Position numbers and translations under genes: made by a program. A stretch of 40,987 bases of DNA from Minisyncoccota bacterium (GTDB taxonomy: Bacteria > Patescibacteriota > Minisyncoccia > Phycocordibacterales > JAQTLZ01). The notes below the pieces were generated by a model that saw nothing but the letters and a program-made list of their open reading frames with translations, did not search any database and was not told the DNA's origin. Every line of letters starts with the position of its first letter. The first letter of the stretch is position 1. The stretch covers positions 1 through 40,987 of the forward strand of contig JAQTSY010000009.1 of the NCBI GenBank assembly GCA_028711065.1, read 5' to 3'. This document shows, piece after piece, positions 31,636 to 38,539 of this stretch.

Positions 31636-32229
31636 TTAGAGCTGGCTTTCCTTGAGTGAGCGGTTGATTTCCTGAAGAGCAAGGGCCTTATATTCCTCAA
31701 TGCGAGAGAGGATGCTCCCACCCCACTCCTCTGTCTCGGAAAAGGATTTTAGTTCTGAAAGCTCTTTCAGGTAGCCCAAATGATGCAGAATACGAAGCAC
31801 TAAAATATATTCGAAATTGCGTAGCTCCTCCGAAGAAAGCGCCTGTGAGTTCGCAAGAAAAAAACAGCTGGAAGAGAAGATACGAAACAGCGCTTCATTT
31901 TTCTCTTCTCCGTGTAAAAATCTTTTAAGAAGCGAGAGGGAGCGGGCAAAAATTTCGAGTCTCTTCTTGTCTTTCCGAAAGAGCTCCCAGAGATTTTCTT
32001 TTTTTTCAGCATTTACCACTCTCCAAAGATCTTTTCCTTTGACCAGAGAAACGGAACTATAGGAAAAATCTTGGAGGCTGTAGCGGAGTTTTGATTTTAA
32101 ATGCCGGATCCCCTGTGCAGAACCGGAGATCATACCGAAATCACGCGTGAAAATTTTGAGATACCGATTTGCCTCACCGGCATTCGTTCCGCCAATAACA
32201 AACCCTTCGGTCTGGTAGATGTGGTGCAT
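31636..32229 (-). CDS. recO: DNA repair protein RecO
   Basis: YQTEGFVIGGTNAGEANRYLKIFTRDFGMISGSAQGIRHLKSKLR. Confidence 0.85.
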   Translation of the reverse strand: MHHIYQTEGFVIGGTNAGEANRYLKIFTRDFGMISGSAQGIRHLKSKLRYSLQDFSYSSVSLVKGKDLWRVVNAEKKENLWELFRKDKKRLEIFARSLSLLKRFLHGEEKNEALFRIFSSSCFFLANSQALSSEELRNFEYILVLRILHHLGYLKELSELKSFSETEEWGGSILSRIEEYKALALQEINRSLKESQL

Positions 32230-32236
32230 GAGAGAC

Positions 32237-35200
32237 TTACAACTTAAGCTCAAACTCCCCTTCCCTCGTCTCAAATCCGGTGATGTTGCAAACCTTTTTT
32301 ATTTCAGCTTCGAATTTTTTTACGATAGCCAGAATCTCTTTCGGTGCAGTCAGAGAAAGTGATACTTTGTCGCTCGCTTGAAGTTTCTTTTCTTTTCTAA
32401 AATCTTGGATAACTCGAATAAGTTCTCTATATTCCCCTTCTTCTTTTAGAACAGGCGTAATAGTGGTATCGAGCAAAACATTTGAAGAAAGTTTCGCATC
32501 AAAAATCACCTCCTTTACATTCAATTCATCTTTAATAAGTCCGACCAGTTCAGGTGATATTTTTTCTGCTTTTACCGTTATTTTCGCGAGCGGCTGACGG
32601 ACCTTGATAAGCGCTTTGGAGCGAGCTTCGAGACCAAGGGAAACAAGATTTCTCACCCCTTCCATTTCTTTCAGAAGTTTCGAATCTATTTTTTCTTTCT
32701 TCGGCCACATTTCGAGATGCACACTTTCTTTTCCACCGCTCCCCTTCACTCGACCGTATATTGTTTCCGAGAGAAACGGCATTATGGGAGCAATAATTTT
32801 AGAAAGCTTAAAAAGAACATATTGGGTACTTTTTAAGGCTGACATTTTATCCTCCGTATCATCACCTTTAAATCGGTCTCGGGAACGGCGGAGATACCAC
32901 GTTGACAGATCGTCTACAAACCCAAGAAGCGGTCGGCACGCTCGATCAAGCTCGTATGCTTCCATTCCTTTCTCTACTTCAAACACGAGCTCATTGAGCC
33001 TGGAGACAACCCACTGATCAAGAGAATGTGAGGTGCTTGGATCTTTCGGAACATCGTTGTAACCTCCTTTGTAGAGTTCGTAAAAAGAGAGTACGTTTTC
33101 AAGACGCATAATGATTTTCTTCATTACTTCATCAACTCCCTTTTCTGTGAAATTCAGATCTTCCGCATGAGTAACAGGAGAAGAGAGGAGATAGAATCGA
33201 AGCGCATCAGCACCATAGACATTCACCACGTCCAATGGATCAGGATAATTTTGAAGACTTTTGGACATCTTCCTGCCATCCTCCGCTAGCACAAGTCCGT
33301 TTACAAGCACATTTTTAAATGGACTTTTCCCAAAAAGAGCGACACCGAGAACGATGAGCGAATAAAACCACCCGCGAGTTTGATCAAGTCCTTCAGCGAT
33401 AAAATCCGCTGGAAATCCAACGCTCTTTTTCGGATTAAAATCTTTAAGCGCCTCCCCTTGATAGGAAAATTGTCCGTACGGCATCGAGCCCGATTCAAAC
33501 CAACAATCAAAAACTTCGGGAATCCTTTTCATCTCTCCTGGACAACAATCACAAGGAAACGTCACCTCATCAATATACGGTCGATGGAGATCAAGTTCAT
33601 AGTCATCATTATGAGGATAAGGAGAAAAAGAAATTTCCCGAAGTTCCGCCGGCTGAAAATAGAAGGGTTCAGGGGTTTTCCGCTCGTGGCCGAGAAGAAT
33701 TCTTTCCTTTGTCCACCCCCCCGCAGCTGCTACCACTAAAGTCATCGGGGTATCATGGCTCACGATAAGAATATTTTTACCGGAAAACCGAGAATCAATA
33801 TCGAAAAGAAAATCTCCAGATCTTTTTCTTACTTCCGCAAGCGTCTCTCCGCCTTCCGGAGTTTTCACGAATCGCTCGAGATACGGATATTCATCCTGAT
33901 ATTCTTTCCAGGTCTTACCTTGATACACTCCAATATTATCTTCTCGAAGTCGAATATCGATGATAACTTTGTCGGGAGAAATATTCAAAGCTTCTCGAAT
34001 TATTTCTGCGGTCTCTTTAGTCCGGACATAATCAGAAACGAAAATCACATCGATCTTTTTCTTTTTCAAAAGCTTTGCTGTTGCTTCTACTTCTTTTCTC
34101 CCTTTCTCTGTGAGCTTGTAAGGATCATCGGGACGACAGCTTACCGTCCCGGTCAGGTTGGATTCTGCCTCTCCATGCCGAACCAGAAAATAGTTATTTT
34201 TTCGAGAAGATTTCTCGCGAAGTTTCTCGATAGAACCAATAACTTCCCGCTTCTCGCACTTGTTGCATTCCCACACAGGAAGCGGAGCGCCCCAAAATCG
34301 TGAACGAGAAATTGCCCAGTCCGGCGCGCCTTCGAGCCATTTTCCAAATCTTCCGTCACGCAGATCTTCCGGCACCCAATTCACTTTCCTATTTTCTGAA
34401 ACGAGCTTTTCTTTTATCTCTGTAACTTTCACAAACCACGACGAAGTAGCGTAATTCAAAAGCGGAGTCTCGCATCGCCAGCAATGCGGATACGAGTGGA
34501 TGATCTTCTCTTTGGCGAAAAGAAGACCCCGATGAGCTAAATTTTTAATTATCTCAATGTCTGTTTTCTGCGGATCTTCTTTTGGTTTTACCAATTGCCC
34601 CGCAAAATCCGTAACTTCTTTTTTAAACTTCCCGTCCATCCCGACATGCTGAATGAAAGGGAGATTTTCTTTTCGTGACAAATTATAGTCGTCAGTTCCG
34701 AAGGCGGGAGCAATGTGCACGACTCCTGTCCCATCTTCTGTTGTTACGAAATCCCCCGCATAAATTTTCCAGGCATTCTCTTTATTTTCGAGTTTTGCGG
34801 CACCGACATAATAATCAAAAAGCGGTTTGTACGATTTACCCAAAAGTTCTTTTGCCTCAACTTTTCGCAAAATTTTATACCCTGATTTGAAAACCGTCTC
34901 GACGCGAGATTTCGCTAGAATATAGGTATTGCCCGGTTCTTCTCCTTCGACGGCGACGTATTCAGTTTTCGGATTAATTGCCAAAGCCGCATTACCCGGC
35001 AGAGTCCAAGGAGTTGTTGTCCAAGCAAGAATAAAAGTTTTCGGCTTTTCCGTAAGTTCAAATTCTGCTGTAACAGAAATATCGGTGACATCCTTGTACC
35101 CCTGATTTACCTCAAAATTGGAGAGGGTTGTCTCGCATCGAGGACATATATGCATCGACTTGAAGCCTTTGTATATAAGTTTTTTATCGAAAAGGGTTTT

Positions 35201-35737
35201 AAAAATCCACCACACGGTTTCTGAATAGGAAGCATCCATCGTACGATATGCATTCTCCATATCTATCCAACGTCCAAGCCGCGGAATAATTTTCTTCCAA
35301 TCATCTGCATACCGAAGCACTCCCTTTCGAGCGGTTTCGTTAAAAGTCTTGATGCCGAGTATTTCGATATCTTTTTTTGTTTTAAGTCCGAGCTCCTTTT
35401 CAACAATATTTTCCATCGGAAGCCCATGGCAATCCCATCCCCATCGGCGGGCAACACGCTTCCCTTTCATTGTCTGATAGCGAGGAATGGCATCTTTAAG
35501 AGTGCCAGTCAAAATGTGTCCGTAGTGTGGAAGTCCAGTTGCGAATGGAGGACCATCGTAAAAAACAAATTCTTCGAGGTGTTCCTTTCCAGTCTGACTT
35601 TTTTCAAAAATCTTGTTTTCCTGCCAAAAGCGAAGAACCTCCTCTTCACGAAGAGCGATAGCGCTCTTTTTCATACCAAGAGGAGTCTTCTTATGACCCA
35701 TCTCTTTTTCAGTCGTTTTCTCCTTATTTTCCTCCAC
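32237..35737 (-). CDS. ileS: isoleucyl-tRNA synthetase with inserted histidine-phosphatase domain
   Basis: GLPHYGHIL and KMSKS signatures; LVRHGEAESN...IVSHDTPM insert at about aa 512-705. Confidence 0.95.
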   Translation of the reverse strand: MEENKEKTTEKEMGHKKTPLGMKKSAIALREEEVLRFWQENKIFEKSQTGKEHLEEFVFYDGPPFATGLPHYGHILTGTLKDAIPRYQTMKGKRVARRWGWDCHGLPMENIVEKELGLKTKKDIEILGIKTFNETARKGVLRYADDWKKIIPRLGRWIDMENAYRTMDASYSETVWWIFKTLFDKKLIYKGFKSMHICPRCETTLSNFEVNQGYKDVTDISVTAEFELTEKPKTFILAWTTTPWTLPGNAALAINPKTEYVAVEGEEPGNTYILAKSRVETVFKSGYKILRKVEAKELLGKSYKPLFDYYVGAAKLENKENAWKIYAGDFVTTEDGTGVVHIAPAFGTDDYNLSRKENLPFIQHVGMDGKFKKEVTDFAGQLVKPKEDPQKTDIEIIKNLAHRGLLFAKEKIIHSYPHCWRCETPLLNYATSSWFVKVTEIKEKLVSENRKVNWVPEDLRDGRFGKWLEGAPDWAISRSRFWGAPLPVWECNKCEKREVIGSIEKLREKSSRKNNYFLVRHGEAESNLTGTVSCRPDDPYKLTEKGRKEVEATAKLLKKKKIDVIFVSDYVRTKETAEIIREALNISPDKVIIDIRLREDNIGVYQGKTWKEYQDEYPYLERFVKTPEGGETLAEVRKRSGDFLFDIDSRFSGKNILIVSHDTPMTLVVAAAGGWTKERILLGHERKTPEPFYFQPAELREISFSPYPHNDDYELDLHRPYIDEVTFPCDCCPGEMKRIPEVFDCWFESGSMPYGQFSYQGEALKDFNPKKSVGFPADFIAEGLDQTRGWFYSLIVLGVALFGKSPFKNVLVNGLVLAEDGRKMSKSLQNYPDPLDVVNVYGADALRFYLLSSPVTHAEDLNFTEKGVDEVMKKIIMRLENVLSFYELYKGGYNDVPKDPSTSHSLDQWVVSRLNELVFEVEKGMEAYELDRACRPLLGFVDDLSTWYLRRSRDRFKGDDTEDKMSALKSTQYVLFKLSKIIAPIMPFLSETIYGRVKGSGGKESVHLEMWPKKEKIDSKLLKEMEGVRNLVSLGLEARSKALIKVRQPLAKITVKAEKISPELVGLIKDELNVKEVIFDAKLSSNVLLDTTITPVLKEEGEYRELIRVIQDFRKEKKLQASDKVSLSLTAPKEILAIVKKFEAEIKKVCNITGFETREGEFELKL

Positions 35738-35783
35738 GATAGAGGCAATTTTAGCACAAGAGTAGCCTCTCTACGAGGCAAAG

Positions 35784-36233
35784 CTACTGTTCTTCTTCAA
35801 TCGAACCCACGAGCATCCCACGGAGAGTTTTTACACTGAAATACAGAGATACAAAGAAAAGAATCGCGATTATTTGATTAAACCAAAAATAGAGATCCAA
35901 TACTCTGTGATATGCAGCGTAATAAAAAAAGGCGATGAGCTCAAAGAACACAAGGCCAATAAAAGAGACGATGAAATCACCCCAAATACTCACGGTTTGC
36001 TTGGGATTCGTAAGCCCAGCGAAAAGATTGACTCCGAGAATCCCCAATATGATGAAAAAAGCGCTGAAATTGATTTTATCGGTAAAGATTGGCAGGCCAA
36101 TAATCATAATGATGCCTATGGCGAAAAGCGCTTGCCTTACGATGTCGCCATAGTAATGCGGACGAGCCGGATAATGAGGTGTCTCCGAGGGCAGTGATCT
36201 CTCCAAATCTTCTTTTTCGTAATCTCCTTCCAT
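35784..36233 (-). CDS. hypothetical membrane protein (about 4 TM)
   Basis: hydrophobic ORF. Confidence 0.7.
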   Translation of the reverse strand: MEGDYEKEDLERSLPSETPHYPARPHYYGDIVRQALFAIGIIMIIGLPIFTDKINFSAFFIILGILGVNLFAGLTNPKQTVSIWGDFIVSFIGLVFFELIAFFYYAAYHRVLDLYFWFNQIIAILFFVSLYFSVKTLRGMLVGSIEEEQ

Positions 36234-36279
36234 ACCTTAATAATAACAGTTTATGTTCTCGGAGCCAACCGCGCGATAC

Positions 36280-36858
36280 TTATCGAGAAACATCAATACC
36301 AAATATCTTGAGAGCATTGCGCACAAGCACAAGCGGCAGTCCGACGATGTTGTTGTAATCGCCTTCATATTTTTCCACAAAATCTTTCGCTCCGCTCTGT
36401 ATTGCATAGGCTCCGGCCATCTGCATTGGCTCTCCGCTTAGAACATATTTCTCGATCTCGGCAGGAGAAAGCGTTTTGAAAGTAACTTTTGATTCGCAGA
36501 CATCCGAAACGGACTTGCCTGTTTTTGTACTCATCACAGTAAAGCCGGTAAAAACTGAATGAGTTTTACCAGAAAGACGATTGAGCATTGCTATTGCTTC
36601 CTCGGGAGTCGAGGGCTTCCCCATTGCTTCGCCATCGAGGGCGACAACAGTATCAGCGCCAATAATAATTGCGTCGGGGTATTTGAAAGCCACCGCTTTT
36701 GCTTTTCCAATTGCGAGTTTTTCTGCAAGCTCACGTGGTGAAATTTTCGGATCGATAAACTCTTGAAAATCGCTTGGCACGACCTCAAATGGAATACCGA
36801 GCCTTCCTAAAATTTCTTTCCGGCGCGGGGAACCTGATGCGAGAATAATTTTTTTCAT
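36280..36858 (-). CDS. maf: Maf-like nucleotide pyrophosphatase
   Basis: MKKIILASGSPRRKEILGRLG, GADTVV. Confidence 0.94.
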   Translation of the reverse strand: MKKIILASGSPRRKEILGRLGIPFEVVPSDFQEFIDPKISPRELAEKLAIGKAKAVAFKYPDAIIIGADTVVALDGEAMGKPSTPEEAIAMLNRLSGKTHSVFTGFTVMSTKTGKSVSDVCESKVTFKTLSPAEIEKYVLSGEPMQMAGAYAIQSGAKDFVEKYEGDYNNIVGLPLVLVRNALKIFGIDVSR

Positions 36859-36859
36859 A

Positions 36860-38539
36860 TTACATCTTTTCCGGAACTTGTATGCCAAGCAAATTGAGAC
36901 CCTTGGTAAGAACTATTTTCACCGCGTGAGTCAAAGCGAGTCTGTAGGATACACCTGCGTCAGAATCGATAATTTTCGTATTTCCATAATATGAATTAAA
37001 AGCTCCCGCAAGCTCTATAAGATATGTCGCGATGTACTGCGGAGCATATTCTTTGAGAGAAAGCTCGACAATTTCGGGGAAACGATACAACATTTTTTCG
37101 ACAAGATTTATTTCTCCCTCTCCGTTTTTGGCGCTCGATTTCATTTTCATCTCGTTCGCTTTTTCCAGAACAGAATTTGCACGAACTGCAGTATATTGAA
37201 GATATGGACCCGAATCCCCTTCAAATGAGAGGGATTTGTCGAAATCAAAAATAATATCTTTACCCGGAGATTGGCGGAGGATCGAATACTTGATAGCTCC
37301 GATCGCCACTTTTTCGACAATTTCTTTTTTCTGACCAGCTGGGAGCTCGCGATCTTTCATTTTTTCTTCCACCAATTTCTCGACATCGGAAATCAAAGAT
37401 TCCGCAGAAAGAATTGTTCCCTTCCTCGAAGACATCTTGCCCGAGGGTAAACGAAGCATCCCGTGCGGAATGTGTTTTATCTTTCCAACATATTTTGGCC
37501 ACAAAAGTTCAATAACTCGCCTGACCACTTTGAAAAAATCTGTTTGCTCCGATGCTGTAACAGTAATGGAAAGATCGTAAGGAAACGCTTCTTTTTTGAG
37601 CTCGGCAAGACCCAATTCCTTTGCTTCGTAGGTTGGCAAACCTTCAGAATTGAGAAAGACACGAGTATGAAGATTGTGGGTCTCACCTTTGAAGACTACA
37701 GCTCCTTCGCTTTTTTCAAAAAGATCTTCTGGATTCTTCAGCACTATTTCTCGGCCAATTTTCCCCGCATCGCTTTCGAAGAAATGAAAATCAAAATGAC
37801 TGCCGAGCTTTTTGTAGAGTTCCTCAAAATGCTCGAGGGAAATTCTTTTCCCCTCTTCATACAGCGCTAGTATTTCCGGATCGCTTTTTTCATAAATGAT
37901 CTTATTTAGGGCAACAATTTCCTTTTTTGCGTGTTCGTCATCTTCGTAAGCAGTGTTCCCGAGCGCATATGCTTTGCCGAGTATTTGTATAGTAATTTTT
38001 TTCTCACCCATTTTTTGAATACCCCAAATTCCTTTTGCAACATGCATTCCAACATCTCCGTGATATGTCGCTCGTTTTATTTCGGCGCCAGATGTCTCTA
38101 CAACGCGCGAGATTGCCTCACCGATGGCGTTGTTCATCAAATGCCCGATGTGAAATTCCTTGAAAGGATTGGGTTGAGTGTATTCAACAAAGGTTTTCTG
38201 GCCTTTGAGAGAGCTGTTTTGGCCGAAATTTTGGCCTTCTGCCAAAATTTCGGCAGTTTGTCCCGCAAAAAACTCTTTCGAGAGATAAAAATTAATAAAC
38301 CCCGCTCCTGCAACCTCCACTCTGTGGATCTCTTTCGGAAGTTTTTTATTAAGTTCCCCCACAATTTTTTCCGCTAAAACCCGAGGATTTTCTTTTGAAT
38401 GTTTCGAAAGCGCAAGAGCAATATTCGTCGAATAATCCCCATGAGAAATTTCTGTCGGATGCTCGAAAGAAACGCTTTCTATTTCGATCGAAAGCGTCTT
38501 CAAAGCTTTTTTTACTAAAATCTCTAGCGTTTCTCTCAT
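36860..38539 (-). CDS. argS: arginyl-tRNA synthetase
   Basis: VEYTQPNPFKEFHIGHLMNNAIGEAISR; DALR-like C-terminus. Confidence 0.95.
   Translation of the reverse strand: MRETLEILVKKALKTLSIEIESVSFEHPTEISHGDYSTNIALALSKHSKENPRVLAEKIVGELNKKLPKEIHRVEVAGAGFINFYLSKEFFAGQTAEILAEGQNFGQNSSLKGQKTFVEYTQPNPFKEFHIGHLMNNAIGEAISRVVETSGAEIKRATYHGDVGMHVAKGIWGIQKMGEKKITIQILGKAYALGNTAYEDDEHAKKEIVALNKIIYEKSDPEILALYEEGKRISLEHFEELYKKLGSHFDFHFFESDAGKIGREIVLKNPEDLFEKSEGAVVFKGETHNLHTRVFLNSEGLPTYEAKELGLAELKKEAFPYDLSITVTASEQTDFFKVVRRVIELLWPKYVGKIKHIPHGMLRLPSGKMSSRKGTILSAESLISDVEKLVEEKMKDRELPAGQKKEIVEKVAIGAIKYSILRQSPGKDIIFDFDKSLSFEGDSGPYLQYTAVRANSVLEKANEMKMKSSAKNGEGEINLVEKMLYRFPEIVELSLKEYAPQYIATYLIELAGAFNSYYGNTKIIDSDAGVSYRLALTHAVKIVLTKGLNLLGIQVPEKM

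Follow-up and report, generated by a model that had tools for sequence, protein, structure and literature searches.

The isoleucyl-tRNA synthetase (IleRS) encoded in the window, by which is meant the whole 40,987-nucleotide stretch of Minisyncoccota DNA analysed here, carries in one surface loop a complete and apparently active histidine phosphatase (HP) domain, as judged from its residues and its predicted fold. The ileS reading frame is continuous, and its single product scores 905.6 bits against the IleRS equivalog model TIGR00392 (cut-off 621.4), being the sole protein above this cut-off in its own genome (0.97 Mb, 99.4% complete). It presents the conserved columns of a class Ia core, namely T240-T245, H341, G347, D350 and K826, which represent the CP1 editing motifs and KMSKS, and the editing motifs themselves (WTTTPWT and HIAPAFGTDD) are canonical. 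In the Pfam scan, the class I synthetase domain is split around a complete His_Phos_1 domain (PF00300), matched at an E-value of 6.8e-35 and 120.9 bits compared to a cut-off of 21.7. These matches bear out the preliminary description of this DNA, which had claimed a complete HP domain within a continuous IleRS frame, and the motifs quoted there fall at R520-H521-G522, R572, E599 and H661. The features of the gene are as follows:

32237 to 35737, minus strand: ileS, encoding IleRS with the embedded HP (1166 amino acids, GTG start)
34484 to 35101, minus strand: CP1 editing domain of IleRS (amino acids ~213-418), from the match to 1wk8 and invariant columns
34256 to 34267, minus strand: first cysteine pair of the CP3 hairpin, C491-x2-C494, just before the insert
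33614 to 34204, minus strand: inserted HP domain (amino acids 512-708; whole insert about 509-714)
33701 to 34189, minus strand: core match to PF00300 His_Phos_1 in Pfam (amino acids 517-679)
34172 to 34180, minus strand: RHG motif, R520-H521-G522, with H521 the predicted phospho-accepting nucleophile
34022 to 34024, minus strand: second catalytic Arg, R572 (SDYVRTKETA)
33941 to 33943, minus strand: predicted proton donor, E599 (RLREDNIG)
33755 to 33757, minus strand: second catalytic His, H661 (VSHDTPM)
33542 to 33553, minus strand: second cysteine cluster of the CP3 hairpin, C729-x-C731-C732, after the insert

The HP domain takes the place of a linker of ~11 residues in the CP3 hairpin, between two cysteine pairs that are kept in about two thirds of insert carriers and lost in about a third. 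IleRS proteins lacking the insert present a linker of 11-22 residues at this site (LEKASGEKVTD, for example), as had been anticipated for an ordinary IleRS. The location between the IleRS flanks also stands as first proposed, while the boundaries given for it, 33623-34204, prove slightly too narrow for the true insert. IleRS has been described with connective regions CP1, CP2 and CP3, the last of these immediately preceding the second Rossmann-fold half (PMC12077802), and by its order in the sequence the hairpin bearing the insert is part of CP3. The window protein resembles the type-2 (eukaryote-like) IleRS of Priestia megaterium (IleRS2; 8c8v) and yeast (8wnd) in its body, CP1, anticodon domain and CP3 hairpin, whereas these enzymes have the linker of ~11-22 residues where the window protein has an HP of ~200 residues. 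Two insert-less IleRS (L220 and L219) carry an extra 135 and 50 residues, respectively, near the position of window amino acid 230, inside CP1.

The chemistry of the HP superfamily runs through a phosphohistidine intermediate. The insert displays the residues typical of branch 1 of this superfamily (PF00300), comprised of the RHG motif, a second Arg, a Glu/Asp donor and a second His. R520, H521, R572, E599 and H661 are each invariant in 29 aligned inserts with a median pairwise identity of 37% and a minimum of 20%, and all 67 IleRS-embedded copies examined retain the two His, the two Arg and an acidic residue (Glu or Asp). The arrangement RHG/R/E/H is found in 61 of these, and the other six differ only at the Gly (RHA or RHC) or by a Glu to Asp replacement; phosphatase activity is on record for an enzyme with the RHA variant (PMC3866925). 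The AlphaFold model of the full-length protein has a mean pLDDT of 91 (about 95 over the insert region), and the insert modelled alone (pLDDT 94.4) adopts the HP α/β fold. Foldseek matched the insert to GpgP, PspA and PhoE at E-values of about 1e-13, and also to CobC structures, while the IleRS part of the model superposes on the yeast IleRS-tRNA complex (8wnd) with TM scores of 0.81-0.90. The model thus predicts an intact HP fold within an undisturbed IleRS, and this structure, together with the invariance of the catalytic residues across deeply diverged copies, agrees with the earlier expectation that the insert is likely active.

Among branch-1 HPs, the insert was compared to PspA/iPSP1 (4ij5), PhoE (1h2e), GpgP (4pz9 and 6s2q), CobC (6e4b) and the Aquifex HFP (9mmh), with which it shares the fold (TM about 0.7-0.78), RHG motif, second Arg, Glu and second His; each of these is a free-standing enzyme, whereas the window HP is embedded in IleRS. 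It scores below the models for CobC α-ribazole phosphatase (TIGR03162; 76.5 bits compared to a cut-off of 162.9), PspA phosphoserine phosphatase (NF045917; 64.5 compared to 350) and SixA phosphohistidine phosphatase (TIGR00249; 41.8 compared to 74.5). Since it falls below the equivalog cut-off of every characterized HP subfamily tested, no substrate is assignable by homology. A small enzyme domain within IleRS has a precedent in ileS_w_GNAT (NF040702), although the embedded enzyme there is an N-acetyltransferase of a different family; the window protein scores 343 bits against this model (cut-off 1999), and the Pfam scan detected no GNAT domain in it. A CobC-like HP is likewise joined to a nucleic-acid enzyme, RNase H, in the bifunctional RNase HI/acid phosphatase (PRK07238; 76.6 bits compared to a cut-off of 326), but this is an end-to-end fusion to an unrelated partner rather than an insertion. 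The parts of the window protein are therefore of known kinds, and insertion into IleRS has a precedent in NF040702, while no description of an HP inside a synthetase was found in the open-access papers that were searched, subscription papers and preprints lying outside that search.

The preliminary description had named an assembly artefact as the condition that would overturn it, and the distribution of the insert speaks to this directly. Counted from genome tables, an HP lies inside a long ileS frame in 68 of the 102 genomes sampled in the window's class, with one more at a contig edge. A scan of named genomes added 28 IleRS in which a complete insert occupies the position seen in the window, nearly all from Parcubacteria/Paceibacteria metagenome-assembled genomes (MAGs) and one from a closed chromosome (CP011215.1). 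An assembly chimera is ruled out, for the insert recurs across dozens of assemblies made independently, some of them closed or in a single contig. An intein is likewise ruled out by the HP fold and by the lack of a Cys, Ser or Thr after the C-terminal PHN. Across a phylum-wide sample of 287, the insert is concentrated in the window's order and class, with scattered families beyond these, and it is absent from those IleRS compared from Streptomyces, Oscillospiraceae, Wolbachia, Bacteroidetes, Treponema and two archaea. One IleRS from a MAG labelled Lysobacteraceae (L024) groups within Patescibacteria and probably belongs to a mis-binned contig.

A tree built from 122 HP domains places 56 of the 67 IleRS inserts together in a single large set, within which the copies encoded by separate genes beside ileS also nest and outside of which most free Patescibacterial HPs are found. 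Many deep branches of this tree are weakly supported, so that a single origin of the IleRS inserts is no more than likely. Mapped on the tree of the IleRS body, the state of the insert changes at least 12 times, so that loss, transfer or repeated gain must have been frequent. The history of the window's own insert is illustrated by a striking partner, locus L016, with which it is paired at full support in the HP tree and from which it is separated in the IleRS body tree, where the pairing is rejected (p-AU 0.039). The two loci share gene context (maf and orf149), and the comparison over 32237-36888 is a mosaic in which the insert, maf and orf149 are 72-77% identical (the insert 77%), the IleRS body segments only 59% and 50%, and argS 42%. 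Recent horizontal transfer was rejected as the cause, given that third-codon positions are equally diverged in insert and body, which leaves an ancient exchange or strong selection as the only fitting accounts. The gene orf149 (35784-36233), just upstream of ileS, encodes a conserved protein of 149 amino acids that is 72% identical in L016 and has no Pfam match.

The gene neighbourhood provides a second form of the association. A conserved cluster, argS-[HP]-ileS-recO-duf11-proS, is matched in order by argS, ileS and recO of the window, of which the neighbours of ileS are:

36860 to 38539, minus strand: argS, upstream member of the argS-[HP]-ileS-recO cluster
31636 to 32274, minus strand: recO, conserved cluster member downstream of ileS

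Among the genomes of the class, eight with an insert-less ileS encode a strong HP of the same clan (E-values up to about 1e-39), and in six of these it is a separate gene that precedes ileS on its own strand by less than 2 kb, abutting ileS in four and standing 1.1 and 1.9 kb away in two. These six represent three family groups and are not all independent events. A separate HP occupies the argS-ileS gap beside an insert-less ileS at the Staskawiczbacteria loci L028, L030 and L073, and again at L152, L214, L215 and L216, its frame often overlapping both neighbours by a few bases. That the HP occurs both embedded in IleRS and as a separate gene beside it indicates that the phosphatase and IleRS probably work together, although operonic adjacency could instead be left over from fission or fusion and need not reflect a selected partnership. 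No HP of the insert's clan was detected in about 19 insert-less genomes among the 102 of the class, from which it follows that the HP is dispensable for tRNA charging itself; about a quarter of relatives are without any linked HP.

HPs also occur in valyl-tRNA synthetase (ValRS). HPs of other clades are inserted at the homologous ValRS hairpin in at least eight genomes (loci L157, L158, L159, L160, L161, L162, L170 and L225), and because these clades differ from those of the IleRS inserts they were recruited independently. In one genome of the window's own order (G223), IleRS and ValRS each contain an HP; the IleRS of family f78 (L155, L163 and L165) contains two, and in G243 (L156) there are three in IleRS plus one in ValRS. 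The HPs in the IleRS of f78 and G243 flank the DLHRPYID segment or sit further downstream. Genome G046 has two HPs in ValRS and one in IleRS (L164) at another site, beside a GNAT domain, and the ValRS of G229 (L170) bears embedded HAD, serine hydrolase and HP domains. In another Patescibacterial fusion (L169; G225, family f56), an HP stands behind a VTT membrane domain in a protein of 446 amino acids.

The explanation that best accommodates these observations, held with somewhat more confidence than doubt, is that the insert is a predicted active branch-1 phosphatase of the PhoE/CobC/PspA type, acting in trans and functionally tied to IleRS through its dose or location. The phosphomonoester substrate would phosphorylate H521, and the phosphohistidine would then be hydrolysed with E599 as the acid/base, while aminoacylation and CP1 editing would proceed as usual in the IleRS core. 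The target of the phosphatase would be a phosphorylated compound that diffuses freely, with a small metabolite or a nucleotide the likeliest candidate and a protein or tRNA end a less likely one, and embedding or operonic coupling would set the amount and location of the HP relative to the synthetase. A link that is functional and not accidental is favoured by the convergent ValRS insertions and by the operonic argS-ileS form.

The main rival holds that IleRS is a mere carrier in a compact genome, and that the insert is an ordinary metabolic phosphatase, unrelated to isoleucine or translation, which was kept in a permissive CP3 hairpin. GNAT, HAD and serine hydrolase domains sit in some Patescibacterial IleRS or ValRS, which suggests that these synthetase surfaces simply tolerate insertion and so favours this reading, as do the frequent changes of insert state on the IleRS tree and the presence of a same-clan HP unlinked to ileS in some genomes (G174 and G330). 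Against it, the separate gene adjoins ileS, instead of lying anywhere in the genome, in three or more lineages of family rank, and the shared IleRS/ValRS hairpin was a point of convergence for HPs from different clades; such carriage is a serious but unlikely account. That the Patescibacterial class Ia synthetases for branched-chain amino acids, IleRS and ValRS, recruited HPs repeatedly at this one hairpin for a hitherto unknown step tied to Ile/Val tRNA charging, such as the removal of an inhibitory phosphometabolite or the repair of a phosphorylated tRNA end, is a doubtful proposition that can be entertained only tentatively.

Of the roles offered in the preliminary description, proofreading finds no support, given the intact CP1 editing motifs and the many relatives with an ordinary ileS and no linked HP, while a part in controlling aminoacylation or in processing a tRNA end is conceivable. 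A regulatory or quality-control phosphatase that tunes or restores isoleucylation by dephosphorylating IleRS itself, a translation factor or a damaged tRNA end would suit an HP linked to IleRS, located beside ArgRS and found also in ValRS, and the superfamily does include members that act on proteins (SixA and PGAM5). Its probability is nonetheless low, with the insert far below the SixA cut-off and dispensable in many relatives. A non-enzymatic spacer, in which the HP fold serves only as a scaffold touching tRNA or partners, could be read into the loop location and the loss of the cysteine pairs, but a scaffold would not need the five catalytic residues kept in every copy, making this very improbable. 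Least credible is a glycolytic phosphoglycerate mutase (dPGM): the insert belongs to the superfamily that includes dPGM, but it scores only 74.1 bits against dPGM_arch (cut-off 225), has LREDNIG in place of the ERHYG mutase signature, and resides in a 99.4% complete genome (G000) in which no enolase, iPGM or metalloenzyme-type PGM was found, an absence that suggests there is no lower glycolysis and largely refutes the role.

Few known enzymes are as conserved as the aminoacyl-tRNA synthetases and, to our knowledge, these have seldom gained a new catalytic function within their catalytic half. In the present case IleRS, the essential enzyme that charges tRNA with isoleucine, houses a hydrolase from an unrelated superfamily throughout much of a class of tiny, uncultured bacteria; the hydrolase is exchangeable for an adjacent gene and has been recruited again in ValRS. 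If the phosphatase is indeed tied to its host enzyme, the finding makes testable the question of which phosphorylated compound must be cleared near IleRS and ValRS, and would offer a tractable biochemical way into the Patescibacteria, whose metabolism is poorly understood.
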